Shown: positions 13,134 to 34,118 of the stretch, in pieces
How positions within the stretch are numbered: position 1 is the first letter of the stretch
Layout: each line of letters opens with the position of its first letter
Assembly (NCBI RefSeq): GCF_035917675.1
Contig: NZ_CP109104.1
Coordinates: 3,100,001-3,164,000 of the forward strand
Length of the DNA: 64,000 nucleotides
Source: Streptomyces sp. NBC_01775
Lineage (GTDB): Bacteria; Actinomycetota; Actinomycetes; Streptomycetales; Streptomycetaceae
Reading direction: 5' to 3'
The notes under the pieces: model-generated
Databases searched by the model: none
The model's input: the letters and a program-made list of their open reading frames with translations, nothing else
What the model was told of the DNA's origin: nothing
Program-made: the position numbers and the translations under genes

Positions 13134-16100
13134 CTAGCCCAGGTAGGGCTCGTAGTCCCAGTGGGGGCGGGTGCGCTGGCGTGCCGCGAGGGTGTGGTGG
13201 TGCTGGGCGCCGAGCGAGCGGGTGAGCCGCTCCAGCGCCTCGGCCTCCACCTCGCGGGCCTCCTCACGGCGGCGCAGGGAGCGCAGATCGGCGGCGTTCG
13301 CGATCATGCAGGAGAGGGTGAGCGGGTGGTCCTCGCCCAGCGTGGCGCGGGCCCGGAGGTGGGCATCGTGGCTCAGCGCGTAGGCGTCGTCCAGCGCCTC
13401 GCCCAGGTTGCGCCCGCCGCTGGTGTTCAGGGCGCAGCCCAAGGTGGCCGGATGGTCGGGCCCCAGCAGCGAGGTGAGCCCGGCGAGGGCCTGCTCGAAC
13501 ATGGTGAGCGCGCCGTCCCGGTCGCCCTCGGCCTGGAGGACGAGGCCCGCGTTGGACTGCATGGCCGTGGAGACCGGGTGGGCGGGGCCCAGCAGTGCGC
13601 GGAAGCCGTACTCGGCCTCGGTGAGCAGCTCACGCGAGAGGGTCAGATCGCCGTGCTCGCGCAGGAAGTTGCCGTAGTCGGTCAGCAGCGCCAGCGTGGA
13701 GTAGTGGCCACGGCCGTGCACCTGCTCCTGCTGTTCGAGCAGGGCCGCCATGGCGGTGGCCATGTCCTGGCGCGAGGTGCCGGACCTGCGCTGGCACAGC
13801 AACAGGTTGTGCCGCGCCAGCAGGGTCTGCGGGTGCTGCGGGCCGAGCACCTGGAGATGCAGCCGCATGCCCAGGTCCTGGCGGGCCACCGCTTCCTGGT
13901 AGCGGCCCATCAGGCGCAGGTCCCGGGCGCAGGCGTTGCCGGAGGAGAGGGTGTTGAGATGGCGGGCGCGCAGCACCTGTTCGCGCTTGCGGAGGGTGTC
14001 CAGGTCGATCTCGTACGCGTCCTCGTAGCGGCCCAGCAGGCGCAGCCCGACGGCGAGGTTGTGCTGGGCGAGGAGGCTCGTCCACTCCGCGGGCCCGTAC
14101 AGCCCCCGGGACACCTCGACGACCTCCTCCTGGAGCGTCAGCGCCTCGTCGTACTGGCCCAGCAGGCGCAGGTCGGAGGCCAGACAGCTGGTGGCCTCCA
14201 TGACGGCTTCCTCGTCGGCACCGGGGATCTCCCGCAGCCGCTCCAGTCGGGCGCTGTCGAGGCTCTGCGCCTCGCGGAAGCGGCCCGCCATGCGCAGCAG
14301 GTCGCCCTGGAGGGTGGTGAGGGCGCGCAGGGGCTGGTCACCGGCGTCCAAGAAGCCCTCCCATTCCTGCCGGATGCTGTCGGCCAGCTCGGTGCCGAGG
14401 GTGTACTCGCCGCTGGCGTAGCAGTACCGCAGGCAGTTGAGCAGCATGCCCTGGACGCGACGCTCCTTGCTGGCGGGCGCGGCCGAGGCCAGCAGATGCG
14501 GGAGGAGTTCGGCGTAGCGGCCCCACTGACGGCTGTCGTTGGGCGCGCCGGTGTCGGCCTCGACCAGCAGCCGGTGGACGGTGTCGCGGTAGACGTCGCT
14601 CTCCCGGCCCTGGGTCAGCTCGCTGACGACGCTGTGGACGACCTGGTGCATATGCACCGAGTCCTCCTGATCGCCGTCGCCGACGGAGGGGCCGCGGGAC
14701 TCCCGGGTGAGCACGGAGTAGTTGACGAGGGAGTCCAGCGCTCGGGCCCAGCCCGCCCTGTCACTGCTGATCCACCGCAGATGTTCGGGGAGTTCGGCGG
14801 AGGGGATGCCGCGCGCGAGGCCCAGCGGGATGCGTCCGGGCGAGAAGACCGCGCACAGGGAGAGGAGTTCGACGGCGCGGGGCTCGGATTTGCGCAGCTT
14901 GTTGAGCAGCAGCGACCAGGAGGTGAGGGAGGAGTAGGGGTAGTCGTCCGGCATGGAGCGGGTATCCAGCCGGATGAGCCCCACGCCGCGCACCATGCGC
15001 AGGTATTCGGGCACCTCCATGCCCTCCTCGCCGAGCCAGGCTGCCGCCTGGGCGAGCTGGAGGGGCAGGTCCTGGAATTCGCCGGCCACCTGGTCGGCCT
15101 GCTCGACGGTGATGTGCGGGGCCCGGCGCATGAGGTAGCCGGTGGACTCGGCACGGCGGAAGGCCGAGATGCCCTTGATGTCGGTGCTGGCACGCCAGTT
15201 CTGGTTCCGGGAGGTGATCAGCACGTGTCCCGTGCCGCCCTGGGGGAGGTAGGTGACGGCTTCCTCCGGCTCCTCCCAGCCGTCGAAGATGAGCAGCCAG
15301 CGGCCGGACGGCTCGTTCCTGCGCAGCGCGTCGCGTACGGCGCGCACCCGCTCGCCGACCTCGGCCACTCCACCCAGGCCCAGCTCGGAGGCGAGCGAGC
15401 TGAAGGTGTCGCGCTGGGTGTTGCGCTGGTCGCAGTTGACCCACCACACGACGTCGTAGTCGGGCGCGAAGCGGTGCGCGTACTCGGCGGCGATCTGGGT
15501 CTTGCCGATACCGGCGGTGCCGACGAGGGTGCACACGGCGGCGCCGTGCTCGGCGTCCATGAGCTGCTGCTGGAGGTCGCCCAGGATCACGTCACGGCCG
15601 GTGAAACGGGCGTTGCGGCGGGGGATCTCGCCCCAGACCCCGGGCGGGTCGTTGGGGTAGCGGCTGGTGTAGGCGGGCAGCGGGGCGCGAGTGCGGCGGG
15701 CGCGCAGTCCCAGCCGGTTGAGCAGCCTGCGCTCGGCCTCCTCCTCGCCGACCCCCCACAGGTTGACCGGCTCCAGCACCGCGGTGGCGGGCAGCAGTTC
15801 GCGGTTGGTGAGGTTGACGGCGGCGAACCGCTCGGCGTTCTCGGCGACGTAGCCGCGCAGCACCGCGTTCCAGTCGGTCTCGGTGCGCGGCCCGAGCTGG
15901 AAGAACACGTCGCTGATGACGAGCAGGACGCGCCCTGTGGCGAGCTGGAGGTCACCGAGCGCCTCGTCGAGCGGCTGTTCGCGGTCGGGGTCCCAGCGCT
16001 GGAGGGTGGTGCGGTGGCCGTGGCTCTCCAGCCGGTGGGAGATCCAGGTGCCCCACGCTCGGTGGTAGCCGGGAAAGACCACCACGAAGTGCTCGGACTC

Positions 16101-16145
16101 CGGCCCCGCCCCGCCGCCGTGCGACTGTTCCCGCTGAGCGACCAT
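13134..16145 (-). CDS. fxsT: FxsT-like TIR/NB-ARC/TPR (STAND) protein
   Basis: About 1003 residues. The N-terminal 110 residues look TIR-like (FVVVFPGYHRAWGTWISHRL). An NB-ARC ATPase follows, with Walker A VGTAGIGKT near 206-214 and Walker B RWLLIFDGWE; the C-terminal half is tetratricopeptide repeats with the pattern LGPxHPxTL. The ending, RTRPHWDYEPYLG, is typical of the tetratricopeptide proteins of FxSxx-COOH peptide systems (FxsT). ATG 16145 has GAGGGAG upstream. It is the last gene of the array, 79 bp after the HExxH gene. In STAND proteins ligand binding on the repeats drives ATP-dependent assembly; here the ligand may be the modified peptide. No FxsA or radical-SAM FxsB is adjacent, so the name is by similarity. 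Confidence 0.85.
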   Translation of the reverse strand: MVAQREQSHGGGAGPESEHFVVVFPGYHRAWGTWISHRLESHGHRTTLQRWDPDREQPLDEALGDLQLATGRVLLVISDVFFQLGPRTETDWNAVLRGYVAENAERFAAVNLTNRELLPATAVLEPVNLWGVGEEEAERRLLNRLGLRARRTRAPLPAYTSRYPNDPPGVWGEIPRRNARFTGRDVILGDLQQQLMDAEHGAAVCTLVGTAGIGKTQIAAEYAHRFAPDYDVVWWVNCDQRNTQRDTFSSLASELGLGGVAEVGERVRAVRDALRRNEPSGRWLLIFDGWEEPEEAVTYLPQGGTGHVLITSRNQNWRASTDIKGISAFRRAESTGYLMRRAPHITVEQADQVAGEFQDLPLQLAQAAAWLGEEGMEVPEYLRMVRGVGLIRLDTRSMPDDYPYSSLTSWSLLLNKLRKSEPRAVELLSLCAVFSPGRIPLGLARGIPSAELPEHLRWISSDRAGWARALDSLVNYSVLTRESRGPSVGDGDQEDSVHMHQVVHSVVSELTQGRESDVYRDTVHRLLVEADTGAPNDSRQWGRYAELLPHLLASAAPASKERRVQGMLLNCLRYCYASGEYTLGTELADSIRQEWEGFLDAGDQPLRALTTLQGDLLRMAGRFREAQSLDSARLERLREIPGADEEAVMEATSCLASDLRLLGQYDEALTLQEEVVEVSRGLYGPAEWTSLLAQHNLAVGLRLLGRYEDAYEIDLDTLRKREQVLRARHLNTLSSGNACARDLRLMGRYQEAVARQDLGMRLHLQVLGPQHPQTLLARHNLLLCQRRSGTSRQDMATAMAALLEQQEQVHGRGHYSTLALLTDYGNFLREHGDLTLSRELLTEAEYGFRALLGPAHPVSTAMQSNAGLVLQAEGDRDGALTMFEQALAGLTSLLGPDHPATLGCALNTSGGRNLGEALDDAYALSHDAHLRARATLGEDHPLTLSCMIANAADLRSLRRREEAREVEAEALERLTRSLGAQHHHTLAARQRTRPHWDYEPYLG

Positions 16146-16224
16146 GCGTACGTTCTCCCTCGTCCAGCAGCCGCGCCACCCGGGGGTGACTCCATGCGGC
16201 AAGATTACCCAAAGTGACTGTCTG

Positions 16225-17526
16225 TTAGCTTGTGGGCGAGGGTGCCGGGCCTCGCCGTGCGGGTGCGCACAGCCGCGCGTGGTGGCGGCGCATCCCTTCC
16301 ACGAACTCTGTGCCTTCTGCGGTCAGTTGGCCAGAGTCCAGAAGGAGGGAAAGGGCGTCGTCGACCTGTTCACGGTACTTCTCACGGCGCGCTTTCGCCG
16401 CCACGCGCTCCTCGGTACCGGCTCCGGCGCGCCGCGCGAGGCGGTCCCACAGATCGGCCAGGGCCAGGTGCGCGTACGTGCCCTGGAGGACGGCGCCCAG
16501 CGGCCGGGGGTCGGCACGCCAGCCGACGCGGAAGACCGCTTCGCCACCCTCGTGGTACAGCCGCACCATGTCGCCGAGGACGGCCAGCTTGCTGTGCTGC
16601 ACCTCGTGGACGAGGACCTCGGCCATCTCCTCCGCCGACTCGGGCAAGGTGGTCAGCACCGCCCAGGGCGCGGCCAGCCGGGTGGCACTGGCACGGCCCG
16701 ACGGCTTCCACCACACGGGTACGACGGCGCGGACCCGGCCGGTGACCTCGGCGGCCCGCTCGGGGTCGGCGGCACCGAGAAGGCGGAGCGCACGGGTCCA
16801 CAGCTCACGCCAGGCGTGTGCTTCGTCCGCCGTCACGGTGGCGGGGCGCAGGCCCGCGATGCCTCCGGCGTCGCGGCCGAGGTGGGGGTCCTGGTCGTCG
16901 AGGAGGGCACGCGCGCCGGGCAGTGCGCGGACCGGCAGCCAGCCGCCCCCGCCGCCCTGGCCTCCCGGCGGGACGGCCAGGGCTTCTGGCGCTGCGGGAC
17001 GGTGGGGGTGCGGGAGCGTGGTGGGCTCGCCGCCTTCGGGGGTCAGGATGAGGGTGTGAGACGTGGCCTCTATGTGCAGCAGGGGCGCGGCGGTCGCGTA
17101 CGCGCCCAGGCCCGGCAGCGTCAACAGCCCCTCGCGCACCGGCAGGGTGAGCCGGAACGCGCGTGCGGCGCCGGTGGCCACAACGGCGGCGACGGCTCCC
17201 AGCCCCTCCAGCGCCCGCTCGAACCCAGCGCCTTCCCCGGCGGCGAGCGCGTGAGCCAGCCAGTTGCCGACGGCCGGATAGCCCAGTGCCTCGCGGGCGG
17301 CGGCCGGGGCGTGGGACTCGGCCTCCTCCAGCAGCCGCCAGTCGCGCCGCAGGGCGCGGGCCGCGTCGTCGCTCAAGGGAACGCGCCCGGCTCTCGTCAG
17401 CAGGGTCTTGAGGAGGACGAGGCGCCTGCTGTGCAGTCCGGCGCGTAAGAGCGCGGCCTCACGGGGCACCGGGCGGGTCTCCCCCATCCCGCGCAGTGCC
17501 GGGCCGGTCAGTTCAAAGGGCTGCAT
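16225..17526 (-). CDS. HExxH-type putative peptide beta-hydroxylase
   Basis: A 433-residue protein with the motif HEVQH at 307-311 in EVLVHEVQHSKLAVL, followed by LYHEGGEAVFRVGWRADPRP. These match the HExxH peptide-modification family, some members of which are 2-oxoglutarate-dependent peptide beta-hydroxylases. The helical N-terminal half (about 20-200) probably binds substrate. It starts inside the end of the 113-residue gene (14-bp overlap), with no good ribosome site of its own, so translation is likely coupled. The ATP-binding FxsT-like gene follows. In related clusters this domain is fused to a radical-SAM enzyme; here it stands alone. Peptide hydroxylation is inferred from family. Confidence 0.8.
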   Translation of the reverse strand: MQPFELTGPALRGMGETRPVPREAALLRAGLHSRRLVLLKTLLTRAGRVPLSDDAARALRRDWRLLEEAESHAPAAAREALGYPAVGNWLAHALAAGEGAGFERALEGLGAVAAVVATGAARAFRLTLPVREGLLTLPGLGAYATAAPLLHIEATSHTLILTPEGGEPTTLPHPHRPAAPEALAVPPGGQGGGGGWLPVRALPGARALLDDQDPHLGRDAGGIAGLRPATVTADEAHAWRELWTRALRLLGAADPERAAEVTGRVRAVVPVWWKPSGRASATRLAAPWAVLTTLPESAEEMAEVLVHEVQHSKLAVLGDMVRLYHEGGEAVFRVGWRADPRPLGAVLQGTYAHLALADLWDRLARRAGAGTEERVAAKARREKYREQVDDALSLLLDSGQLTAEGTEFVEGMRRHHARLCAPARRGPAPSPTS

Positions 17527-17854
17527 CGTGGCCCGTGCTGTCGCCTCCCGGGCCGCAGGTTGACCGGAACGCGCCCCGTCCGCCGGATGTCGCGTCCCGT
17601 CCGCCGGACATCCCGCCTCTGTTCACCCGCGCGGCGGCCGTCTCCCGCTTGCCGCTTCCTCCTTGGCCGCCGGTCGAGCGCCACACGCGCGAGAGCGCTT
17701 CAGGAGTGTGCAGAGCGCTCTCCACCGCCGCGGTGACGGCTGCGTCGTCGCAGGTCTTGAGCATGCGCAGGGTCACGCCCCGCAGATCGGGCAGGGGCGG
17801 TGCGGCGAACTCCTGACCCGGGCTGCGGGACGTGCCATCGGTCCACTTCGGCAC
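17513..17854 (-). CDS. 113-residue candidate peptide substrate of the HExxH enzyme
   Basis: The GTG at 17854 has an excellent GGGAGGAG ribosome site, which defines a 113-residue protein; the same frame stays open far upstream but runs into low-complexity sequence and the next gene. The first half, with LPDLRGVTLRMLKTCDDAAV and VESALHTPEALSRVW, could be a helical leader. The second half is Gly/Ser/Arg/Thr-rich (GGQGGSGKRET, NRGGMSGGRD) and ends Gly-His-Asp-Ala-Ala-Leu, with Asp, His and Asn residues a hydroxylase could modify. It overlaps the HExxH gene by 14 bp. It does not end in F-x-S-x-x, so it is not a standard FxsA. I recognise no family; a precursor role is inferred from position and composition. 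Confidence 0.6.
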   Translation of the reverse strand: MPKWTDGTSRSPGQEFAAPPLPDLRGVTLRMLKTCDDAAVTAAVESALHTPEALSRVWRSTGGQGGSGKRETAAARVNRGGMSGGRDATSGGRGAFRSTCGPGGDSTGHDAAL

Positions 17855-18062: not shown

Positions 18063-21000
18063 TCATCCGGCCAGTTCGGCCACGCGCTCCCGGGTCTCGC
18101 GGACCTCGGCCCAGGGCACGTCGGCCAGGTGATTGGCCAGCACCTGCCATTCGGCCGCGGCGGCGCGGTAGTCGGCCAGCGCCTCGGCGGTGCGGCCCTG
18201 GGAGCGCTGGAAGTCACCGCGCGCGTGCAGGGCGCGGGCGGCCGTGGCCGAGCCGCCCTCGCGCCGCTCCTCGGTCTCCTCCAGCGCTCTGGTCAGCTCG
18301 GCGCCCGCCTGCTGGAACTGCGGGGCCTCGGCGGGGAAGAGCGCGCGGGCGCGGCCGAGCCTGAGCCATGCCTGCGCGCGGCCCTCGGGGTCCGCGTCCT
18401 GCCGTGCCGCCTGCTCCAGCAGATGACAGCCCTCGTACAGGTCGGGCCGGAACCCCCCGCGCTCGTAGCGCAGCAGCAGGACGCGGCCCAGCAGTGCCGC
18501 CGCCTTGGCCACCACCGGACCGGAAGGCGCGCGGGTGAGGGCCTCGCGCAGGATGCTCTCCGCGCGCGGAAGGTCGGCCACGTCGGTGAGCAGCATCTCG
18601 CCCCATTCGCTGAGCAGTTCGCCGCGCTGCACGCCGTCGGGAGCGGTGAGCCGTACGGCTTCGGCGTACGCCTCGGCAGCGCCTTCCCAGCCTCCGGTCT
18701 CGCGCAGCGTTCTGGCCCGCTCGCGGGCGCAGCGCAGCCGCAGCGCGGACCGCTCGCCCGCCGCTTCGGCGGCCTCCTGGAGGACGTCCAGCCGCTCCTG
18801 GGCCGCCGCCCCGGTCAGCCGAAGCGCGGCGACCAGATCGAGGAGGGCGGCGCAGCGCTGTGCGGCGGCGTCGGCCGGGTGGCCGGCGGGCCGCCGGGTG
18901 GTCGCTGTCGTGGATGCGCCGGAGGGGTCGGGGCCTCCGGCCGCGCGGTCTGCCAGCATGTCGCTCGCCTCGCGGAGTTCGCTGACGGCCTCGGGGGCCG
19001 CTCTGGGGCGGTGTTCGGGTGCGGCGTGGGCGAGCGCGAGCAGCACCCGGCCAAGCCGGAGTTTACGGGTGGTCTCGGCATCCTCCGGGAGCCCGGCACC
19101 GCCCGTGTCCCCGTCGTATCCGGCGGCCCCGCTGTCCCCGTCGTCCTTGCTTCCCCCGTCGTCCCCGTCGTCCCCGTCCGCGTCGGTCCTGCTGTCGCGG
19201 CCGTCTCGGCCGGCCGCGTCTCCGTCCCTGGCTCCGTTCCTTGCCCCGGTCCCGGTCCCGGTCCCGCCGCCCAGGCGGCCTTCGAGGGCGCGCAGGAGGC
19301 GTTCGGCGTGCAGCAGGTGGCCTGTTCCGCCCTGTACCTGCCACAGGTCGTGCTCGACGGCGGCGCGCTCCAGCGAGGTGGCGGGCGCGTCGCCGGTCAG
19401 CAGGACCGCCGCGTCCCGCAGCAGCGACTCGGCCCCCTTGGGCGTACGCCGCACCGCCGCCGTGCCCGCGAGGGCGTGCAGCACCTGGGCCAGGGCGAGC
19501 CTGGCGCGCTCGCTGTCGCCCTCGGCCGCTCGTGCCGCCTCGGCCACCGAGCGGGCCTGGTGGAGGAGTTGGGCGTCACCTTGGGCCCGCCACTGGCGCA
19601 GCAGCCGTTCGGCCTCGCCCACCTGGTCGGTCGCGCTCTGTTCGGGCAGGTAGAAGCGGACGACCTCGGCGGGGATCTCCGCGAACAGCTCGTCGCCGCC
19701 CTCGTCCTCCTCGTCGGTGCCGTCGGCTTCTCCTTCGGTGCCCGGCTCGCGGACGCCCGGCATCCGCTCGGCGCGGCCCGTCAGCTGGGCGACGGCCACC
19801 GCCGCGAAGTTGCGGGTGCCCTTACCGAAGCGCTGCGCCACATACCCGGAAAGGTGCTTGAGGATGAGGACGGCGGCGCCCTGGTCGAGGGATTGGAGCA
19901 GCAGCTCGCGCACGCCGGGCGCGAAGGTGTAGCGCGGCCCGGCGCCGGAGGTCTCGTCCCGGTCGGGCAGCCGCTCCAGCAGACCGGACAGCAGCACCTC
20001 GGCCAGCTCCATGGGGCCGGTGTCGGGGAGCATCGCCTCCTGGACGAGGTGGATGACCGGAAGCAGCAGCGGCACGACCGCCAGATGCACGGCCAGGTCC
20101 AGGGCGCCCGGCGAGGCGGTGTTGCGGAAGTCCCGCAGCAGTGTGCGGGGCGGCACCGTGCCCGGCACGGTGCGCGGCGGCGGCATCGCGGGATGGCGGG
20201 GCAGCACCCAGGCGGCGGCCCCGGGAACGGCGCGCTCCCCGCCGCCGCCCAGCAGCCGCGCCCAGTTGCCCAGCGCCTCGGGGGTGGGCAGCAGGACCGG
20301 CACCGGCAGGGCCTCCGCCGCCGGGCGCGGGCCGTACTCGTCCGTCCGGAAGCCGATCCGGCCGCCCGCGCCGCGCTCCCGGACGAGCGTCCCGGCCTCG
20401 GCGGGCAGCGCCGTGCGGGGCCACAGCCGGGGCGGCAGCGGCTGGATGACGGCCAGCGGGGAGCGGCCCGACCAGTGGTGCAGCAGCCGCTGGGCACGGC
20501 CGTCCTGCCACAGCGGACCCACGCAGTCGCTGACGACGAGCGTGAGGCGGCGGCCCGTCGTGTCGCGGTACTCATCGGCGGGGCGCAGCCGTGTGGTGCC
20601 GTCGGCCGGGCCCGTGCCGATGAGCGGGGAGCCGTCCTTGGCGCGGTGCAGATAGCGCACCTGCACATCCCGGAAGGCACCCAGCTGTTCGAAGGTCTGG
20701 CGCAGCCGCTCCAGCGTCGGCTGCCACACGGAGGCGGTGGCCGAGGCGTCCATGAGGAGCTGGATCTCGCTGTAGCGGCGGGCCTCGGTGCCGAAGACCG
20801 GCTGGATGGTGGCGCTGCGCGCGCTGAGGTCCGCCGTGGCCTCCTCGTCCAGCGCTCCGGTGGAGGGCGGCAGCGGCGGGCGGTAGCCGTGCAGGGGGCG
20901 CAGCGCGTGCTGGAGCTGGAGCAGGCCGGAGAGGGCGCCTGCGGCGGGCGCGCGCACCGGGAAGCCGCCACGGGTGGCCCCGCCGTGCCGGCGCGGCGCG

Positions 21001-21347
21001 TACAGCGACACGGGCGCGGTCCGCTCCGGGCCCATCGGCTGTACCTCGGCCGGGTCCTGCGGGTCGGCGGGTGTGGGCATGGAGGGCTCCGCGTGAGGCG
21101 TCCGGATCCCGGGATAGCGGGGACCGGTGGAGCCCGTGTCGCGTTCCTCCTGAGAGCGCCGGCCCGTCCAGCGGGCCAGCCACACGGCCTCCGCGACCTC
21201 CTCGGAGGAAGGCTCCCACCCGGTGGCGCGCAGGCGTGCCACCAGCTCCGCCAGGTCCTCGGCCAGTTGGTCGGGCCGAGGACCTGCGGAGGACCGCTCG
21301 CGGCCGGTGGGCCGCGGCGGGGGCGGAACGGGCGAAGGCGAACTCAT
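18063..21347 (-). CDS. SAV_2336-type vWA protein with C-terminal helical repeats
   Basis: About 1094 residues. After a short Pro-rich tail comes a helical segment (LAEDLAELVARLRATGW, EEVAEAVWLARW), then a von Willebrand A-like domain with the metal site near 200 (QLLMDASATASVW) and the second aspartate near 274 (LVVSDCVGPLW). PTPEALGNWARLLGG, typical of SAV_2336 proteins, follows. From about 560 to the end there are Ala-rich helical repeats of TPR character. ATG 21347 lies 7 bp after the MoxR stop with GAGGTAG before it. In vWA-MoxR-protease systems the vWA subunit is thought to bind the ATPase and recruit clients; that role is inferred. Confidence 0.85.
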   Translation of the reverse strand: MSSPSPVPPPPRPTGRERSSAGPRPDQLAEDLAELVARLRATGWEPSSEEVAEAVWLARWTGRRSQEERDTGSTGPRYPGIRTPHAEPSMPTPADPQDPAEVQPMGPERTAPVSLYAPRRHGGATRGGFPVRAPAAGALSGLLQLQHALRPLHGYRPPLPPSTGALDEEATADLSARSATIQPVFGTEARRYSEIQLLMDASATASVWQPTLERLRQTFEQLGAFRDVQVRYLHRAKDGSPLIGTGPADGTTRLRPADEYRDTTGRRLTLVVSDCVGPLWQDGRAQRLLHHWSGRSPLAVIQPLPPRLWPRTALPAEAGTLVRERGAGGRIGFRTDEYGPRPAAEALPVPVLLPTPEALGNWARLLGGGGERAVPGAAAWVLPRHPAMPPPRTVPGTVPPRTLLRDFRNTASPGALDLAVHLAVVPLLLPVIHLVQEAMLPDTGPMELAEVLLSGLLERLPDRDETSGAGPRYTFAPGVRELLLQSLDQGAAVLILKHLSGYVAQRFGKGTRNFAAVAVAQLTGRAERMPGVREPGTEGEADGTDEEDEGGDELFAEIPAEVVRFYLPEQSATDQVGEAERLLRQWRAQGDAQLLHQARSVAEAARAAEGDSERARLALAQVLHALAGTAAVRRTPKGAESLLRDAAVLLTGDAPATSLERAAVEHDLWQVQGGTGHLLHAERLLRALEGRLGGGTGTGTGARNGARDGDAAGRDGRDSRTDADGDDGDDGGSKDDGDSGAAGYDGDTGGAGLPEDAETTRKLRLGRVLLALAHAAPEHRPRAAPEAVSELREASDMLADRAAGGPDPSGASTTATTRRPAGHPADAAAQRCAALLDLVAALRLTGAAAQERLDVLQEAAEAAGERSALRLRCARERARTLRETGGWEGAAEAYAEAVRLTAPDGVQRGELLSEWGEMLLTDVADLPRAESILREALTRAPSGPVVAKAAALLGRVLLLRYERGGFRPDLYEGCHLLEQAARQDADPEGRAQAWLRLGRARALFPAEAPQFQQAGAELTRALEETEERREGGSATAARALHARGDFQRSQGRTAEALADYRAAAAEWQVLANHLADVPWAEVRETRERVAELAG

Positions 21348-24807: not shown

Positions 24808-27800
24808 TCAACGGGGCCCACCGTGCCGTGAGTTGCCCCTGCGCAGCCGTGGTGCGGACAGCGGCCACGAGTCCTCCCCGCGCGCGTCCGGCGGGTCGTA
24901 CAGAACCACCAGTTCCCGCCCCCACAAGGTGTCCGGATGGCGTTCGCCGTGCAGGTGCCTGCGCAAGGAGTGCACCAGGTCCAGCAGGTCGTCGGCGTCG
25001 GCGGCGCGGCGAACCAGGTCGTACGCCTCGGTCCGGAACTCCTCGCGCCCCTCGTGCGTGCCACCGTGGCGGCGCCACAGGACGAGGCCGTAGCCGGCGG
25101 CGAGGGCCACCTGTAGCGCTTCCGCCCCCTCCCCTGTGCCGTCGTCCATGGAACCGCAGTGGACCGGGACGGCGTTGGCGGGCGCTCCGGTGAGACGGCC
25201 GTAGACCGCGCGGATGTCCTCGTCGTCCGATCGCAGTGGCACAGGCACCAGTTCGGGGCCGAGCCCACGCTGGACGCCGTCCCAGCGGAAGGTGCGGTCG
25301 GACGCGCCGTCGCGGGTCCTGGGGGCCACGGCGACGGGATACCGCGCGCCGAGGGGCGGGCCGTCCGGCGGGACCCGCCATTGATCGACCGGGAGTTCCA
25401 GCAGTTGCGTGGGCACCACGAAGCGCACCCCTGGACCGGGCTCGCCGATGTCGGCGAGCGCGAGCGCGGCGGAGAGGGGCTCCGCCAGCGCGTCGCCCAG
25501 CGCCTCCCTCGCCCGCGGCCGGTCACTGCCGTGAGTGGTGGTGGCGCTGTGATCGCCGTGCAGCATTCTGACCCGCCAGGTGTGGCTGGGCTCGCCGCTC
25601 TCGTAGGCGTCGGCGGGGTCGATCTCGACGAGGACGCCGCGGTATCCCCGTTCGGGGGCGGTCCCGGTCTCCAGAACCCGCAGGAGGCCGCGCTCGTCGC
25701 CGTCCTCGCCGGGGACCATGGCACCCAGCCGCTCCACCCAGGCGTGCAGTTCGTCGCACGGCCCCTGGGGGCCACGCCTTTCGTTCGCCGCCCACACGTG
25801 TGCCGCGTACCGGGCGAGAAGGCCGGGTTTCGTGTCTCCGTCCAGGGAACGCAGCAGAGCGGCGCCGTCCCGCCAGTTGGCTCCCCCGGCGCCCTGGCCG
25901 GGAGAGTCCGGCAGGTGAGCGGCCGGTGCTGCTCGCCGCAGAGCGGTGAGGACGGCCGCCCCGTCGGCCGGTGGCTCCAGCCGGGCGAGGATGCCGTACA
26001 GGTCGGCGCGCGTTCTCGGGGTGAGGACCGGCGGCGGGAACGTGGCCGTGGGCCCGCTGCTGTGCCGGTTTCGTGCCCCGGAGGCCAGGCGGCCCGCGTG
26101 GTACAGGTCGTGTTCCCGCAGCGCCGTGCCCCAGGCGGCAGGGTGCCTTTCCAGCAGGGCCATCGGCACCGCGCTCCAGTGCAGCGGGTCGGACACGGAG
26201 CCCAGCATCCCCACGACCACGCCCTCCCGGGTATCGACCAGCGGGCCCCCGGGGTGCGGCCTGCGGTCGTACCGGGAGTCGCTGGAAACGGCGCGGAAGA
26301 CGGGCCCGCCCCCCGGCAGCCCCAGCCCCTCCTCCTCCGTCCATCCGAACACCGTCAGTTCGGGCGAGGCGATGGCTGAATACTCGGAGAAGTCCGCCAG
26401 CCACAGACACTCCGGGGCGTCGGCGCCCGGCACGTGGAAGAGGCCGAAAGAGCCATCCTCCAGTGGTCCGGCCGAGTCCGCCCGCAGTCCCCTCCCTTGG
26501 GCCGTCATCACGGTGACGGCCTCCCCGGAGCTGTCCGGCGGCGGAAGGGACACCACCCACTCCGGGGCGATGAAGAACCCGTTCGCCCAAGAGGGGTCAC
26601 CCTCCGGCCGCTCGATACGCACCATGGCCTCGCGCACCGCGTCCCGTACCGGATCCTCACGCACGCGCGGCATCGGCACGATCGGCGGCCTGGAAGGGCC
26701 CCTGACGACGCTCCTGCGGGCTCCGCCCTCGAAGCGGCGGACGACGGCCGCCGGGACCTCCGCGAAGGCGGGCGGGAGGGCACTGGCCGCCACGGTTTCG
26801 GTGTGCCGGATGGTGCGGGTTTCGGTGTGGGTGAGGCGGGCGAAGGCGTAGGCGGGGAAGTTGCGCGCGCGGCGGCCGAAGTGCCGCAGGACGTACTCCG
26901 ACAAGTGCTTGAGGATCAGCACCGCCTCGCCCTTGGGGAGGGAGCGCAACAGCGTTTCGCGCACGCCCGGGACGAACTCGTACCAGCCCTCGTCCGCGTC
27001 GTACCAGCCCTCGTGCGTGTCCTCGGCCCGTCGCAGCAGCCCGCTCAGCACGACCTCGGCCATGACCTCGGGACCGGTCGCGGAAAGCATCGTGCGCTGG
27101 ACGAGCTGCATCACGGGCAGCACCAGCGGCACGGCCGAGAGACAGACGGCGAGCTGAACGGCCTCGCGGGACGCGGTCGTGCGGAAGGCGCGCAGGATGT
27201 CGGCCGGCTCGCGGCCGGCGGCAGGCGGCCGAGGCCCCGCCGAGGGATGCCCGGGGAGCACCCAGCCGGCGGCTCCAGGCCGGCTCAGCCCGGTGCTGCC
27301 GGACAGCAGGCGGGCCCAGGTGCCGAACGCGTCCTGGTTGAGGGCGAGCACGGGCACCGGCAGCGCGTCCCCCCGCGGGGCGGATGCGGCATCCGAAGGG
27401 GCGAAGGCGAGCCGCGCGACGCGGCCTTCGCGCCGCCGGAGGATGCCAGGGCGTGCGGGCAGGTGCGAGCGTCGCCACATGCGCTGGGGCAGCGGCTGGA
27501 CGAGTGCGACGGGGACCGTCAGCGACCAGTGGTGCAGCAGCCGCTGCATCCGGCCGTCCCGCCACAGCGGGCCCGCGCAGTCGCTGAGGACGAGCGTGAG
27601 CTGCCGTCCGGTGGGGTCGCCCAGCCGGGCCGCGGGCCGGGCCCGTCCGCGCCCTGTCCGCTCGGGGCTCGCGAGGAGGGTGCCGTCCGGTCCTTCGCGT
27701 ACGTACTGGGTGTGCACCTCTGTGAAGGCCCCGGTGACGGTGCAGATCTGGGCCAGCTCGTTGAGCGCCTCCTGCCACAGCACGGTGGAGCTGGAGAGGT

Positions 27801-28488
27801 CCATCACCAACTGGAGGCGCACGGCACGCCGTTCGGAAGGGCGCAGCACGGGCAGCACCAGCCCGGTCTCCGCCGCACGCTCGGCCGTCGCCTGCTCGTC
27901 CAGTCGCCGGGCGGGGCCCCGGCCGGGCGGCTGAAAGCCCTGAAGGGGGCGGAGCGCCCGCTGGAGCGGCAGCGTACGGGGCAGCGCGGTGGCGGCGGGA
28001 ACGCGTACAGGCACGGCCCGCCCGGTCCCGTACGCGCCGCGCGAGGCCCCGTGGGGCGCCCTGGACGAAGACCGCCCGGTATGAAGACTGGCGGTATCCG
28101 GTGGGCCGGTTTCCTCCTCGGGGGCAGCGCGGCTTCCGGCGGGATCATCGGCGGTATCCGGCAGTCCTGTGGGGGCCTGGCCGGATGCGGGCACCGACTG
28201 GTCCGGGCCGGGAGCGCCGGAGGGATCGCTGTCCGCCGGGTGCGCCGTCTGTGCCGGGGGGACGTGACGGGCCAGCCACAGGGCATCCGCCAGCTCCCGC
28301 GCGGTGATGCTCCCGTCCGGGCCGCCCGGCCCCGGGACCCCGGCCGCGCCCGCGCCCGTGCGCGGCCCCGTCCCCGTTCGCTCCGTCGCGCGGCGCAGCC
28401 GTTCGGCCAGCTCGGCGAACGGGCCGAGGGAACCGGCCGGTTGGCGGGACCCGGGCGACGGGGGTGGCGAGGGCGGCGGCCGGGTCAT
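24808..28488 (-). CDS. Fusion of vWA (SAV_2336-type), degenerate trypsin and VMAP-like C-terminal domain
   Basis: A 1226-residue fusion. Residues 1-600 parallel the separate vWA protein: ELADALWLARHV, vWA metal site near 230 (QLVMDLSSSTVLW), LVLSDCAGPLW, and NQDAFGTWARLLSG. From about 610 a trypsin fold follows (WANGFFIAPEWVV), but the His position reads VVSLPPPD, the Asp strand reads GSFGLFHVPG and the Ser loop reads PHPGGPLVD, so all three catalytic residues appear lost. The rest (about 850-1226) is the shared C-terminal domain with LPVDQWRVPP, LAAGYGLVLWRRHG and LVVLYDPPD. The start overlaps the MoxR stop (ATGA). It is probably a non-proteolytic adaptor or decoy in the complex. Confidence 0.88.
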   Translation of the reverse strand: MTRPPPSPPPSPGSRQPAGSLGPFAELAERLRRATERTGTGPRTGAGAAGVPGPGGPDGSITARELADALWLARHVPPAQTAHPADSDPSGAPGPDQSVPASGQAPTGLPDTADDPAGSRAAPEEETGPPDTASLHTGRSSSRAPHGASRGAYGTGRAVPVRVPAATALPRTLPLQRALRPLQGFQPPGRGPARRLDEQATAERAAETGLVLPVLRPSERRAVRLQLVMDLSSSTVLWQEALNELAQICTVTGAFTEVHTQYVREGPDGTLLASPERTGRGRARPAARLGDPTGRQLTLVLSDCAGPLWRDGRMQRLLHHWSLTVPVALVQPLPQRMWRRSHLPARPGILRRREGRVARLAFAPSDAASAPRGDALPVPVLALNQDAFGTWARLLSGSTGLSRPGAAGWVLPGHPSAGPRPPAAGREPADILRAFRTTASREAVQLAVCLSAVPLVLPVMQLVQRTMLSATGPEVMAEVVLSGLLRRAEDTHEGWYDADEGWYEFVPGVRETLLRSLPKGEAVLILKHLSEYVLRHFGRRARNFPAYAFARLTHTETRTIRHTETVAASALPPAFAEVPAAVVRRFEGGARRSVVRGPSRPPIVPMPRVREDPVRDAVREAMVRIERPEGDPSWANGFFIAPEWVVSLPPPDSSGEAVTVMTAQGRGLRADSAGPLEDGSFGLFHVPGADAPECLWLADFSEYSAIASPELTVFGWTEEEGLGLPGGGPVFRAVSSDSRYDRRPHPGGPLVDTREGVVVGMLGSVSDPLHWSAVPMALLERHPAAWGTALREHDLYHAGRLASGARNRHSSGPTATFPPPVLTPRTRADLYGILARLEPPADGAAVLTALRRAAPAAHLPDSPGQGAGGANWRDGAALLRSLDGDTKPGLLARYAAHVWAANERRGPQGPCDELHAWVERLGAMVPGEDGDERGLLRVLETGTAPERGYRGVLVEIDPADAYESGEPSHTWRVRMLHGDHSATTTHGSDRPRAREALGDALAEPLSAALALADIGEPGPGVRFVVPTQLLELPVDQWRVPPDGPPLGARYPVAVAPRTRDGASDRTFRWDGVQRGLGPELVPVPLRSDDEDIRAVYGRLTGAPANAVPVHCGSMDDGTGEGAEALQVALAAGYGLVLWRRHGGTHEGREEFRTEAYDLVRRAADADDLLDLVHSLRRHLHGERHPDTLWGRELVVLYDPPDARGEDSWPLSAPRLRRGNSRHGGPR

Positions 28489-29648
28489 CAGCGCGGTCCG
28501 CGCTCGCCGGAGTCGAGGGGGCGCATGAGCAGATGGGAGAGCCTTTCCCGGTCGATGTCCCGGCCTGTCGCGGCCTGCTGGGTCAGGTAGACGGCGTTGA
28601 GCAGCTGGTCGGCGGCGCGCAGTGAGCCGGGGCTGCTCGTGAGGAACGAGTGGATCAACTCCTCGCGTTCCGCCGCTCCCTCGTCCCCGAAGTGCGCGTG
28701 CACCATGGCGGCGAGGCGGTCGGCGCCCGCCTGGTCGTTGCCCGGCGAGGGCAGGTCGAGGTGCAGACAGCGGCGCAGCAGCGGCGCGGGGAAGTCACGC
28801 TCTCCGTTGCTGGTCATCACCACGAGGGGGAAAGCGCGGCACTGCACCCGGCCACCGGTGACCGTGGCGTGTACGCCGTCGTCGGTGAGCACCGGCGTCT
28901 CCGGCTCGCGGTCGGCGATCCGCTCCAGCTCGGGGAGGGTGAACTCGCCTTCCTCCAGGACGTTGAGCAGGTCGTTGGGCAGGTCGATGTCGCTCTTGTC
29001 CAGCTCGTCGATGAGCAGCACGCGTGGGCGCTCATAGGGGAGCAGGGCGGTGCCGAGGGGGCCGAGGCGCAGATAGCGGCCGATGCTCTGCCCGCCGCCG
29101 GGTCCGCCGCCCGCCTCTTGCCGGTGCTCGCGCTGTTGTCGGTGCGCGGGCTCTTGCTGCCGGTGCTCGCGCTGTTGCCGGTGCGCGGGCTCTTGCTGCG
29201 CCCCGGGCCCGTCCGCGGGCTCTGGCGCGTGGGTGCGGGCGAGCTGGCTGTCCTGGAGGCGGGCGATGGCGTCGTAGGCGTACAGCCCGTCCCGCAGCGT
29301 CGTACGGCTGACGACGGGCCAGCGCAGCACCCGGCCCAGCCCCAGCTCGTGCGCGAGCGCGTGCGCCAGCGTGGACTTGCCCGCGCCGGGGTCGCCGGTG
29401 ACCAGCAGCGGACGGCGCAGATACAGCGCCGCGTTGATCAGCTCCAGCTCCTCCTTCCGCCAGGCGGGGCGGGCCCCGGAGCGCGCGTTGAGACCGAGCC
29501 GACGGGTGGACTCCGTCCCGAGGGGCGGCACCTGCGTGAGCGGCGGGCCGCCGTCGAAAGCGCGCCACGGGGGCGGCGGCGGCAGCCGGTCGATTCCTTC
29601 GTGGGGCTCTGCGGTGCCCCGGAAGACGAACCAGTCGGGGACGCTCAC
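28488..29648 (-). CDS. MoxR-type AAA+ ATPase (copy 2)
   Basis: A 386-residue AAA+ ATPase closely similar to copy 1: Walker A GDPGAGKSTL near 84, Walker B LLIDELDKSD, sensor VMTSNGERDFP, and the shared LPNDLLNVLEEGEFTLPEL. GTG 29648 has GAGGAG six bases upstream; the frame runs much further but only through the protease gene in another frame. A Gln/His/Arg-rich insert of about 45 residues, partly two copies of a 13-residue repeat, separates the strand after Walker A from the Walker B strand and is absent from copy 1. Its stop overlaps the fusion gene start (ATGA). Confidence 0.93.
   Translation of the reverse strand: MSVPDWFVFRGTAEPHEGIDRLPPPPPWRAFDGGPPLTQVPPLGTESTRRLGLNARSGARPAWRKEELELINAALYLRRPLLVTGDPGAGKSTLAHALAHELGLGRVLRWPVVSRTTLRDGLYAYDAIARLQDSQLARTHAPEPADGPGAQQEPAHRQQREHRQQEPAHRQQREHRQEAGGGPGGGQSIGRYLRLGPLGTALLPYERPRVLLIDELDKSDIDLPNDLLNVLEEGEFTLPELERIADREPETPVLTDDGVHATVTGGRVQCRAFPLVVMTSNGERDFPAPLLRRCLHLDLPSPGNDQAGADRLAAMVHAHFGDEGAAEREELIHSFLTSSPGSLRAADQLLNAVYLTQQAATGRDIDRERLSHLLMRPLDSGERGPR
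29113..29200. repeat. 39-bp in-frame tandem repeat inside MoxR copy 2
   Basis: Two near-identical 39-bp units encode the 13-residue pattern QEPAHRQQREHRQ in the insert of the ATPase. Copy 1 lacks the insert, so this looks like a recent expansion in a surface loop. Confidence 0.8.
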
Positions 29649-29739
29649 GGATGGCTCCTCGTCGTTCGGTGCCGCTCTTGGCGGCCGGTGTGCGGAAATA
29701 CGTGACGGCGGGTGGACGGATGCGCAACGTGGCGGGTGG

Positions 29740-29827
29740 GCGGGTGCGCGTGACGGCAGGGGTGCGGGTGCACGTGACGGCAAGGGTGCGGGTGCGCGTA
29801 ACGGCAGAAGTGCGGGTGCGCGCGCGG
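29740..29827. repeat. 24-bp noncoding tandem repeat, 3.6 copies
   Basis: The unit GCGGGTGCGCGTGACGGCAGGGGT recurs at 29740, 29764, 29788 and in part at 29812, with one or two changes each. It fills half of the 193-bp gap between the protease stop (29842) and the MoxR start (29648), the only large gap within this part of the array. It could be slipped-strand expansion or a regulatory array. Confidence 0.85.
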
Positions 29828-29841
29828 ATTCTCCGGCCGGT

Positions 29842-32298
29842 TCACGGGGAGTCCAGCGGCTCGGTGAGGCCCGGGATGGGGCGGCGGGGGTCGTCGTAGA
29901 GGAGCGCCATGTGCTCGGCCCAGTACGCCGTCTCGTCGCCTCGGCTGACGCGCTCGCGCAGTGCGCGCAGCCGCTCCGGGAGCGCCGGGGCGTGCCGGGC
30001 GTCGCGGACCAGCTGTGCCGCTTTGTCGAGAAGCGGGCTGCAAACCTCGCCCTCGCACTCGTCCGGGTGAGGCTCGTGGTCGCTCCAGAGCGCGAGGCCG
30101 TAACCGGCGCTGAGGACTTCCCGCAATGCCTCCGGGCCGCCACTGCTCGTACGGCACAGCACCGGTACGGCACGGTCGGGCGCGCCCACGAGCGGACCGT
30201 GGTCCGGGGGCAGGTGCAGGGTGAGGGCTTCGAGGGCACCTTCGAGTGCGGCGTGCCAGCGCTTCTCCCAGGCGGCGCCGGGCGCGAGGTGCGACCCTCC
30301 GGACGCGGGGTGGGCTCCCCCGATCGCTTGGCGGGTCCCTCCGGCCGGGTGCGATCCTCCGAACGCGCCGTACACCGCCTCCCCCGCGCCGGGCACCTCC
30401 TCGTGCGGCTCCCCCACGCGGGCCGCGTCGCGCAGCACGACCTGCCGGTGCACGCCGAAGAGCCGGTCCTCGGGGCGGGGGCGCAGTCCGCGCGGGACCA
30501 GGTCGGGCCGCCACAGATGGACCCCGAGGCCGAAGTGTTCGACGGGTGCCGCCAGTTCGAGGCGGGCGCGCCGCCGGTCGGTGTCCACCCGGGCGAATGC
30601 CTCCCGCAGCGGCTGCGCGAGCTGGAGCGGCAGCTCCTGGCGGGTGGCGCCCTGCCCCGACTCCCGCCGGGCACCGGCGCGCACGCTCTCGGGGCCGCCG
30701 GTCCAGGTCCATATGCGCCAGTAGAAGCGCGTGGTCTCCCGCGTCGGGCCCTCGCCGCGCGGGTAGATCGCGCGCTCCAGCTCGACGGCCACCACGGGCC
30801 CGCCGTCCCGCGCGTCGGCTTCCCGCAGGACAGGGCAGGGCACGGTGGGCGGCTCGGACAGCGGCCCTGGCTCCTCGTACGGCGCCCGCGGCTCGGCGCG
30901 GGCATCCGGTCCCGCGTCGGCATCCGGCTCCGTGGAGGGGCCCGGCTCGATGGAAGGATCCGATTGCGCGTGGAGCCCCGATGGTGCCGCGTGAACACCC
31001 GGCTCCTCGTGAACACCCGGCTCCGCGTAAGCGTCCGGCTCCGCATAGGCGTCCGACTCCAGCTCCGCCGCCCAGGCGGCCCGCTCCAGTGCCGCGCGCC
31101 GCGCCGGGGGCAGCCGCTGGGCCCTCTCGTGCACCCAGTCCAGCAACGCGGCGGACTTCCCGGGCGCTTCGGCCGCGCACTCGGCCGCGACCGAGGACAG
31201 GTAGTGCAAGAAGGCCATTTCCTCGCCCTCCGGGCTCTCGTAGAGCCAGCCGTGGCCGTCCCGCCAGTCGTGCTGGGCCGCCGCGTCCATCCACAGCGAC
31301 TCCTCTCCCAGCACCCTCTCGACGTGGAACGCCACCGCGGAGGGGTGGCCGGGCGGAGGAAGTTCGGCCAGCAGCGCGAGGGCGGTCAGATGGTCGCGCG
31401 CGCTCCAGCCGTCCTCGATGCCCTCGCCGTGCCAGCCGCGGTGAAGGGTCTCCTGCGCCGCGGCCCAGGAGACGCTCACCGTCCGGGGCGTCGACTGTCC
31501 GTGAAAGCCGCCCGGAGCGCCTCCCGCCCGTCCGCCGGGGCGGCGCGAAGACGGGGAGCGCCGCTCGCGGCGGGCGGCGGGGGCGGGCCGGCGCGGGTCG
31601 TGCCACCGGTCGTGCGCGAGGATGAGCGCGCGGTACGGGTCATCGCCCAGGCCGCCCCCGCCGCCTGTGGTCGCGGCGCCCGTGAAGCCGCGCAGGGCGG
31701 TCGTGACGATGGCGAGGCCGCCGTCCTTGCCGCGCCGCTGCGCCTTGACGATCCCGGCAACCGCGCCCCTGTCGAGGTCGAGCACGGGACCCCCCGAGGC
31801 GCCGGACGGGATCGCCGCGTCGGGCCCGAGCAGCGCCCCGTAGGTGCCGTCGCCGCCGCTGACCGCGCACCGGCCGCTCCACGGCTGCGGGCCGGCGCCG
31901 TCCTCCGGCACACGCCAGCCGTGCGCCTCGACCTGGAAGGGCCGGTCGCAGCGGTCGGTCAGCCACACACACGGGTGCGCCACGTCCTCCAGCACCCGTA
32001 CGAGTGCCAGGTCCTGCTCGGGCGCCTGTGTGGCGGTGTCCGAGAGCAGGTACCCCACGCGTGCGGGGACCCTGCCGTGCGCGCCGTGCACCATGAACGT
32101 CCCCGTGTCGCCGACTCCCAGCCGTCCCATCACCACGTGCGCGCAGGTGAGCACCCAGCCGGGCGCGACGAAGAAGCCGCTGCCCCACATGATGTCCTGG
32201 GCCCGGCGCGGTGCCCCGGCTCCCGCCTCGGGCGTGGTGCCGGGACCGAGCCATACCGTGGCTCGGCTGACCAGCGCCTCCAGCCTGCCTGCGCTCAT
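29842..32298 (-). CDS. Trypsin-like serine protease with conserved C-terminal VMAP-like domain (copy 2, active triad)
   Basis: An 818-residue protein with catalytic His54 (WVLTCAHVV), Asp96 (QDLALVRV) and Ser168 (GASGGPVLD). The middle (about 330-400) has LLAELPPPGHPSAVAFHVER, then a Pro/Glu/Asp-rich linker of about 70 residues built on a repeated AYAEP/VHEEP pattern, then the shared C-terminal domain with APVEHFGLGVHLW, VLSAGYGLALWSD and MALLYDDP. The ATG at 32298 overlaps the TGA of the CU044_2847 gene (ATGA), so it is translationally coupled. No signal peptide. In ternary systems the protease is the effector released or activated by the MoxR/vWA pair; this is inference. Confidence 0.9.
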   Translation of the reverse strand: MSAGRLEALVSRATVWLGPGTTPEAGAGAPRRAQDIMWGSGFFVAPGWVLTCAHVVMGRLGVGDTGTFMVHGAHGRVPARVGYLLSDTATQAPEQDLALVRVLEDVAHPCVWLTDRCDRPFQVEAHGWRVPEDGAGPQPWSGRCAVSGGDGTYGALLGPDAAIPSGASGGPVLDLDRGAVAGIVKAQRRGKDGGLAIVTTALRGFTGAATTGGGGGLGDDPYRALILAHDRWHDPRRPAPAARRERRSPSSRRPGGRAGGAPGGFHGQSTPRTVSVSWAAAQETLHRGWHGEGIEDGWSARDHLTALALLAELPPPGHPSAVAFHVERVLGEESLWMDAAAQHDWRDGHGWLYESPEGEEMAFLHYLSSVAAECAAEAPGKSAALLDWVHERAQRLPPARRAALERAAWAAELESDAYAEPDAYAEPGVHEEPGVHAAPSGLHAQSDPSIEPGPSTEPDADAGPDARAEPRAPYEEPGPLSEPPTVPCPVLREADARDGGPVVAVELERAIYPRGEGPTRETTRFYWRIWTWTGGPESVRAGARRESGQGATRQELPLQLAQPLREAFARVDTDRRRARLELAAPVEHFGLGVHLWRPDLVPRGLRPRPEDRLFGVHRQVVLRDAARVGEPHEEVPGAGEAVYGAFGGSHPAGGTRQAIGGAHPASGGSHLAPGAAWEKRWHAALEGALEALTLHLPPDHGPLVGAPDRAVPVLCRTSSGGPEALREVLSAGYGLALWSDHEPHPDECEGEVCSPLLDKAAQLVRDARHAPALPERLRALRERVSRGDETAYWAEHMALLYDDPRRPIPGLTEPLDSP

Positions 32299-32858
32299 CC
32301 GCCCTGCGGGGCCGTGGTGCCTTGGGGAGGCGTGCCGTGCGGGGCAGTGGCACCTTCCGGCTGCGGGCGCGGATCCGGAACCGGCGCGGGACCGGCTCCC
32401 GGAACCGGACCGGTGTGCGGCGCCACATCCGGTAGCGGCACGGGGTCCCTGACGGTGGCCTTGCGCCAGGTGAGGGTGACGGAAACCGCCGCCTTGGCCT
32501 CACCTTCCGCGAGAACCGCCGCGAGTGCCTTGCCCGACTTCACGGCCAGCTCGACGCCGAAGGTGGCGCTGACCTCGTCCGGCGCCGCCTCCTGCGCCGC
32601 GGCGAGCACCGCCGAACCGACGCCGCTGATCACCTCGTTGAGCTGTCGGGCCCGTGCGATGAGCTGGTCACGCGTGCCGACATCGTCGAACTGGAATTCC
32701 TCCGTCTCCTCAGGCGCCTCGCCGTCGTCCAGGACATGCACCCGAGCCAGCACGGTCTCCCCGCCCGGCAGCGTGATCTCCCTGATCTCCCGCTCCACCA
32801 CTCCCCCTAGTCCGCCATTCAGGCCCCGACTCCCTTGCCCCGAGCCCATATTGAACAT
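32295..32858 (-). CDS. CU044_2847 family protein
   Basis: A 187-residue protein. The core VEREIREITLPGGETVLARV, then VISGVGSAVLAAAQEAAPDEV and FGVELAVKSGKALAAVLAEG, and AAVSVTLTWRK matches the CU044_2847 family, whose members accompany trypsin-like proteases in actinobacterial conflict loci. The last 50 residues are Pro/Gly-rich and look disordered. ATG 32858 has AGGGGG seven bases upstream; a GTG nearer the conserved core is possible but poorly placed. As the first gene of the array, it may be the sensor or regulator of the protease. Function is unknown. Confidence 0.8.
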   Translation of the reverse strand: MFNMGSGQGSRGLNGGLGGVVEREIREITLPGGETVLARVHVLDDGEAPEETEEFQFDDVGTRDQLIARARQLNEVISGVGSAVLAAAQEAAPDEVSATFGVELAVKSGKALAAVLAEGEAKAAVSVTLTWRKATVRDPVPLPDVAPHTGPVPGAGPAPVPDPRPQPEGATAPHGTPPQGTTAPQGG

Positions 32859-34117: not shown

Positions 34118-34118
34118 T

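Follow-up and report, generated by a model that had tools for sequence, protein, structure and literature searches.

A ten-gene array of Streptomyces sp. NBC_01775 combining two types of predicted VMAP-ternary module with a radical-SAM-free peptide module

Gene content and organization of the array

A 64,000-nucleotide stretch of the genome of Streptomyces sp. NBC_01775 (the window; 3.10-3.16 Mb on contig 1 of a 9.34-Mb genome) carries an array of ten adjacent reverse-strand genes (13134..32858) between the gene for Kgd and a PadR/toastrack gene pair. As transcribed, the array encodes Trypco1, TryV1, MoxR1, vWA1, TryV2, MoxR2, vWA2, P113, an HExxH protein, and FxsT; two ternary modules, each with the gene order VMAP, MoxR, vWA, are thus joined to a set of peptide-related (Fxs) genes. 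A reading made earlier from the sequence alone (the sequence-only reading) had described ten consecutive genes with these domains, and Pfam and NCBIfam matches bear this description out.

Trypco1 (trypsin-co-occurring domain 1, CU044_2847 family; 32295..32858, with ATG 32858 chosen as start) matches PF19493 (E 1.9e-14) and NF041216 (E 8.8e-18), and is present as a single copy in the array. In module 1 it is followed by TryV1 (29842..32298), a trypsin-like protease with a VMAP-C domain (PF13365, PF20028) and intact His, Asp, and Ser in alignment; MoxR1 (28488..29648; chosen GTG start), an AAA ATPase identified by AAA_5 (E 7.2e-7) and its tree position; and vWA1 (24808..28488), which combines a SAV_2336-type vWA region (NF041121, 448 bits), a dead trypsin-like domain, and VMAP-C (PF20028, E 6.8e-32). 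Module 2 consists of TryV2 (22410..24683; start uncertain between GTG 24683, 24653, 24635, and 24590), a trypsin-like protease with an intact triad (PF13365, E 2e-11) and VMAP-C (PF20028, E 3.6e-36); MoxR2 (21355..22413; GTG 22413; AAA_5, E 2.1e-7); and vWA2 (18063..21347), a SAV_2336-type vWA protein (NF041121, 490.6 bits) without VMAP-C, which has zero Pfam matches at E <= 0.01 and hence no match to TPRs, whose fusion to the vWA protein is a trait of FxSxx-type systems. The remaining genes encode P113 (17513..17854; GTG start), a 113-residue FxsA-like precursor without the FxSxx tail, assigned through the family and profile matches of its relatives; the HExxH protein (16225..17526), a stand-alone homologue of alpha-ketoglutarate-dependent HExxH-type (alphaKG-HExxH) peptide beta-hydroxylases (TIGR04267, 151.7 bits, cut-off 40); and FxsT (13134..16145; ATG 16145 chosen as start), with TIR-like, NB-ARC, and TPR regions (NF040586, 715.9 bits, cut-off 300; TIR_2, NB-ARC, and TPR matches).

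With the chosen start codons, on which the junction lengths depend, there are two overlaps of 4 bp (Trypco1/TryV1 and TryV2/MoxR2), one of 1 bp (MoxR1/vWA1), and one of 14 bp (P113/HExxH). The other neighbors are separated by 193 bp (TryV1-MoxR1), by 124 bp or more (vWA1-TryV2), and by 7 bp (MoxR2-vWA2), 208 bp (vWA2-P113), and 79 bp (HExxH-FxsT). The conserved C-terminal domain noticed earlier in three proteins proves to be VMAP-C, which scores above the PF20028 cut-off in TryV1, TryV2, and vWA1 (3/10 array proteins). These are also the only above-cut-off VMAP-C matches of the genome, which has one more weak match at 3.5176 Mb, as well as a single TIGR04267 match and at least five FxsT-family matches (E <= 1e-20). 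By eye, the N-terminal motifs WxhapG and PsWRxa, described for the MoxR proteins of VMAP-ternary systems (PMC7159879), appear as WFVFRG and PPWRAF in MoxR1 and as WRIYRG and PPWRDF in MoxR2. Candidate metal-binding aspartates, read by eye from the translations at the two places expected for a vWA domain, lie in MDLSSS/LSDC in vWA1 and in MDASAT/VSDC in vWA2; Pfam detects no vWA domain. In a structural model of TryV2, residues ~394-700 (the VMAP-C part) have moderate to high folding confidence; the 50 matches to the Protein Data Bank that were listed all concern the protease, and none places the VMAP-C fold.

Module 1 and the inactive trypsin-like domain

The trypsin-like domain within vWA1 has lost all three catalytic residues: His is replaced by Pro, Asp by Ser, and Ser by Pro. 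In the five vWA-trypsin fusions aligned (the window and loci L038, L040, L214, and L217), the catalytic Ser is replaced in every case (by P, A, P, A, and V, respectively), His in four (L214 keeps it), and Asp in four (L038 keeps it; Glu stands there in two). The stand-alone TryV proteins aligned with these fusions keep His, Asp, and Ser in 6/6, and a full triad was found in four more in a separate alignment; TryV1 of L038 and L040 runs off the locus end, so that its triad lies outside the stretch. The earlier statement that the two trypsin-like proteases have intact triads is therefore right for the stand-alone proteins; the third, dead trypsin domain had been missed.

Module 1 was also found in S. 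iconiensis (L038) and S. cacaoi (L040), and in the sets searched it lies beside Fxs genes only in these two species and the window. A search with the C-terminal half of vWA1 returned 1/392 genomes at E <= 1e-60, the window's own, a count that may be low because three candidates per genome were scored. In the MoxR tree, MoxR1 of the window, L038, and L040 groups with the MoxR proteins of L214 and L217 (100/99), two loci with a Trypco1-TryV-MoxR-vWA arrangement at the Kgd site and without Fxs genes. Origin of the two modules by tandem duplication was considered and rejected, as MoxR1 clusters with L214/L217 (100/99) and not with MoxR2 in this tree of 40/122 collected MoxR rows. Judged by this tree, module 1 is of a different ternary type from module 2, and the description of the array as a "doubled system" is misleading; that the modules are not copies of each other had been missed. 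In the Trypco1 tree, which is weakly resolved, with long rows and open forks, the single copy of the window falls with the module-1 type (97/94); the tree gives a weak hint that the doubled state may be older than the three species.

The HExxH protein as a candidate peptide hydroxylase

By profile comparison, the HExxH protein matches 22nu (E 3.2e-46) and ChlH 8s5f (E 1.6e-16). Its AlphaFold2 model (mean predicted local distance difference test score, pLDDT, 91.9) has as best structural matches SjiH-Ni (22ob, E 6.4e-20) and the ChlB HExxH domain (8s5f, E 4.4e-10), the title of 8s5f naming a novel alpha-ketoglutarate dependent oxygenase. The motifs HExxHxKL and WRxDxRP are common to the HExxH protein and ChlH/SjiH, and H307, E308, H311, W336, R337, D339, R341, and H353 do not vary across an alignment of 40 rows (of 64 available). 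A search for papers found none describing SjiH. The alphaKG-HExxH enzymes are reported to hydroxylate peptides and to act in pathways of ribosomally synthesized and post-translationally modified peptides (RiPPs; PMC12636437). The HExxH protein is accordingly predicted, from fold and motifs, to be a hydroxylase, and a modified P113 peptide is plausible by homology.

Kaur et al. (2020; PMC7159879) regard this family as zincin-like peptidases. As they proposed, the HExxH protein could cleave the precursor and free a C-terminal peptide, without hydroxylation; the HExxH motif itself would fit, as would proteolysis without a leader peptide reported for the family member PflC (PMC12636437). We consider this improbable, given that the closest structural matches are SjiH and the ChlB domain of an oxygenase structure, with both extended motifs in common.

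Absence of a radical-SAM enzyme and the precursor tail

In the sequence-only reading, the last three genes were taken as a peptide-modification module; the precursor, HExxH enzyme, and FxsT are indeed there, and what had been overlooked is that a radical S-adenosylmethionine (radical-SAM) gene is absent. None lies within the array, and FxsB was not found above cut-off in the genome (best score 30 bits, cut-off 370). A hidden radical-SAM gene was ruled out by the largest gap of the array, 208 bp, together with the negative genome search. Among 246 Streptomyces genomes, 26 encode a high-scoring relative of this HExxH protein (>= 216 bits), and FxsB (E <= 1e-40) was detected in 5/26 of these vs. 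155/220 of the others (Fisher p = 5.6e-7, in a test that ignores relatedness); scoring was limited to at most seven candidates per genome for both proteins, and these counts may be low.

P113 does not end in FxSxx, and alone it matches no family, TIGR04268 included (none at E <= 1). Its relatives connect it to the Fxs precursors: 14/17 rows of the P113 set match TIGR04268 at E <= 1 (P113 is among the non-matching), and a profile of the P113 relatives matches the precursors of loci that have both radical-SAM and HExxH genes (96.4% probability, E 1.3e-9), of which 13/13 rows tested match TIGR04268. The tail itself divides the loci. An [FY]x[SNA]xx ending is found in 19/24 precursors at radical-SAM+HExxH loci vs. 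0/73 at HExxH-only loci, where the precursor search pattern had missed 2/26 and 13/86 loci, respectively; counted by distinct cores, the figures are 19/24 vs. 0/61, as HExxH-only loci repeat species across sets and the 73 precursors represent 61 distinct cores. The exceptions among radical-SAM+HExxH loci have the motif one residue off the end (L202, L207) or lack it (L178-L180). In 59/61 of the distinct HExxH-only cores, a Trp lies near the position of the former tail and is followed by a variable extension. The pattern missed 13/13 radical-SAM-only loci; in ten of these that were checked, precursors ending in YEDAP were found in three and FNSAL in L163. At the Kgd site, L197, L198, and L231 (FxsB present, HExxH absent) have a short precursor that ends in YEDAP, a YxD tail rather than FxSxx.

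Thus, as read from these sequences, the peptide module is radical-SAM-free, and the FxSxx tail tracks the radical-SAM enzyme. In the MoxR tree (40/122 collected MoxR rows, author-chosen, midpoint-rooted), the 20 rows from HExxH-only loci fall into a single clade (100/100), which is joined to the radical-SAM+HExxH clade (99/95). This arrangement is consistent with a single loss of the radical-SAM gene; the midpoint root leaves room for other histories.

Linkage of module 2 to the Fxs genes beside Kgd

The array lies between two conserved flanks. On one side, outside the system, is the convergent gene for Kgd, a multifunctional 2-oxoglutarate decarboxylase/dehydrogenase (8880..12896, forward strand; NF008907, 2079 bits); on the other are genes for a PadR regulator and a toastrack/LiaG-like protein (33008..35456, reverse strand; PF03551, PF13349; NF049997 below cut-off). 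With vWA2 as query, 77 loci were recovered, each with Streptomyces in its title; the set is selected by vWA2. Of these, 55 span the interval from PadR/toastrack to Kgd, and TryV, MoxR, vWA, HExxH, and FxsT genes were found in 55/55, with Trypco1 detected in 54/55. A few of these loci (L080, L087, L093, and L105) contain broken genes.

As vWA2 selects for the system, the 3' side of Kgd was surveyed irrespective of it: 121 genomes were searched with Kgd, the 58 with up to 10 contigs were taken, and their sites were annotated by profiles from the first loci. The window's state (ternary, HExxH, and FxsT genes without radical-SAM) was found at 7/58 sites; a full ternary module with radical-SAM, HExxH, and FxsT at 8/58; and ternary, radical-SAM, and FxsT genes without HExxH at 8/58. 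Two further sites have radical-SAM, HExxH, and FxsT, with the ternary part beyond the stretch (L237) or partly masked (L238), and one (L234) has the same three genes without ternary genes. Ternary genes alone were present at 3/58 sites and the HExxH protein alone at 3/58; in the latter (L194, L216, and L220), it adjoins Kgd without ternary genes or FxsT, within 12-13 kb of other genes. Overall, 29/58 sites have ternary and/or FxsT-linked genes, and 25/26 sites with FxsT-linked peptide genes have ternary genes, the exception being L234. A second FxsT-like gene is present at L234, L237, L201, and L203.

None of these genes occurs at 26/58 sites. At 25/26 of these empty sites, a toastrack gene is in reach (the L221 stretch is without one), the distance from toastrack to Kgd being up to 2.5 kb in 18 (minimum a few bases) and 3-10 kb with other genes in seven. 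Weak FxsT-like pieces lie near Kgd at two otherwise system-free sites (L222:165-635, 35 bits; L192, 52 bits), and may be what is left of a lost copy. The use of alpha-ketoglutarate by HExxH enzymes suggested a metabolic connection with Kgd; this was rejected, as Kgd also flanks system-free sites. Mobility of the array as an element that encodes an integrase was likewise rejected: no tRNA, no Rfam match, and no integrase was found among the window proteins scanned, a subset of the genes. Elsewhere in the window, a DUF1266 protein is encoded at 50337-51626 (forward strand; PF06889, E 2.4e-34).

Module 2 and the Fxs genes constitute one syntenic unit between the toastrack/PadR pair and Kgd, at a site that is polymorphic, other genomes having a different version or nothing. 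The earlier proposal that the whole array is one unit therefore holds in part. Its ternary and peptide halves do co-occur in other neighborhoods (55/55 spanning loci and 25/26 unselected sites), and the refuting observation named with it, halves that are never found together, is not borne out. That the doubling belongs to the unit is not supported, module 1 being of another type that stands without Fxs genes at L214 and L217. Away from the Kgd site, 5/6 other FxsB-FxsT loci taken for comparison (L162 and L164-L167) have no ternary genes detected in ~20 kb, and only L163 shows MoxR and vWA; the annotation profiles were built on the present lineage, and distant ternary genes may have escaped them. 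It follows that the Fxs module can stand alone, and stand-alone peptide-processing systems are mentioned in the text of Kaur et al. (2020; PMC7159879).

These solitary loci would also suit a different explanation, by which the peptide genes are a small RiPP cluster whose P113 product, once matured, leaves the cell to act as an antibiotic or an extracellular signal, the ternary modules serving for regulation or immunity. The name of precursor family TIGR04268 (cyclophane-containing RiPP peptide) and the role of alphaKG-HExxH enzymes in RiPP pathways point the same way. However, none of the ten genes of the array encodes a transporter, and a constant NB-ARC/TIR partner such as FxsT at these sites would, in our judgement, be unusual for an exported product; we regard this explanation as unlikely.

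Such presence in some genomes and absence from others at one fixed site would suit an accessory conflict system, without proving one. The locus might instead serve signaling in Streptomyces development or stress, with gain and loss reflecting lineage-specific physiology. This would agree with its place between conserved flanking genes, and with the occurrence of the FxsT family in 246/246 genomes (E <= 1e-20; 227 over cut-off; three candidates per genome were scored, and the counts may be low), which resembles a genus-wide trait rather than a patchy defense. Against such a role, 26/58 Kgd sites lack all of these genes and the occupants of the others differ in their enzymes, and it appears to us a minor possibility.

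Proposed mode of action

Two distinct VMAP-ternary systems are stacked at one site, and we propose that they act in an alarm mechanism with a modified peptide; we assign this a probability of about 0.45. At rest, MoxR and vWA would restrain both the VMAP protease and the NB-ARC/TPR protein. The precursor would be beta-hydroxylated by the HExxH enzyme with O2 and alpha-ketoglutarate, yielding an intracellular peptide that may be read by vWA2 and/or FxsT. Upon sensing of a trigger by the VMAP protein, MoxR remodeling, trypsin cleavage, and FxsT oligomerization would ensue, so that an infected or damaged cell stops growing or dies. In vWA1, the dead trypsin domain could be a docking mimic or decoy, which either links vWA1 with TryV1 or takes up a protease inhibitor. 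The mode of action predicted by Kaur et al. (PMC7159879) is the same.

Several observations weigh against this proposal. Its support comes from sequence, which shows the missing radical-SAM gene, the tail difference, and the dead active site; the biochemical steps and any immune role are inferred, several of the steps being taken from predictions or general background. The co-occurrence statistics for HExxH and FxsB disregard relatedness, and three of the gaps in the array exceed 120 bp and so leave room for separate promoters. PADLOC reports nothing beyond weak partial AAA and protease matches, and both L234 and the five solitary FxsB-FxsT loci lack ternary genes. Furthermore, hydroxylation by ChlB is reported to require a preinstalled cyclophane (PMC12636437); as there is no FxsB here, there is none to supply it.

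In the TIR-like domain of FxsT, Val occupies the position that corresponds to the catalytic Glu of TIR NADases. NAD cleavage by FxsT is therefore not supported, which likewise counts against the proposal as a whole; going by this residue, an adaptor role for the domain is no less probable than an enzymatic one in cleaving NAD.

A more specific version of the alarm mechanism is speculative and, in our estimate, rather improbable. In it, the radical-SAM-free Fxs peptide would serve as an alarm ligand inside the cell. Its beta-hydroxylation, dependent on O2 and alpha-ketoglutarate, would determine the threshold at which an NLR-like protein and a chaperone-gated protease respond; the vWA-borne pseudoprotease would guard the active protease as a decoy for the inhibitors of invaders.

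The comparison of different occupants of one fixed site suggests which enzyme modifies what. As the FxSxx tail is present with the radical-SAM enzyme and absent with HExxH alone, the role of the peptide becomes testable with just two genes. The fusion of a dead protease to the vWA co-chaperone, seen in 5/5 cases, offers a testable idea of how a VMAP protease might be held or guarded, and presence and absence at the Kgd site provide natural comparisons among related Streptomyces.

Comparison with known systems

The families of the array proteins are already named in NCBIfam, and no paper on the locus was found in the open-licence literature, judged from listings. VMAP-ternary systems, Trypco1, and inactive effector domains were described by Kaur, Burroughs, Iyer and Aravind (eLife 2020; PMC7159879), whose text also links a peptide-processing module to an FxSxx-type ternary system with a separate TIR-AP-ATPase gene, and proposes the peptide as a toxin or signal. 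The array resembles these FxSxx-type systems in its VMAP-MoxR-vWA order, Trypco1 with trypsin, and HExxH protein with a small precursor, and its FxsT corresponds to the separate downstream TIR-AP-ATPase-TPR gene. It differs in having no radical-SAM gene, to which their text ties the FxSxx layout, and a precursor without the FxSxx tail, and it adds a ternary module of a second type in front, with a dead trypsin domain and VMAP-C on vWA1. This comparison is with the text, and such loci may be listed in the source data of that paper.

Closer likenesses occur at the Kgd site. The radical-SAM+HExxH form (L172, L195, L209, L235, and others) shares with the array the flanks, ternary genes, precursor core, HExxH protein, and FxsT; it differs in keeping FxsB and in having [FY]x[SNA]xx as the usual end of the precursor. 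L214 (genome G068) and L217 (G079) share with it the Trypco1-TryV-MoxR-vWA arrangement, a Ser-less trypsin domain on vWA, the site, and the MoxR clade (100/99), but have neither Fxs genes nor a second ternary module. The HExxH protein resembles ChlH (8s5f) and SjiH (22nu/22ob) in model fold and in the HExxHxKL and WRxDxRP motifs, whereas it stands alone in an FxsB-free genome. The gene combination as such had already been outlined by Kaur et al. (2020), and the window and its clade depart from it by lacking the radical-SAM gene.

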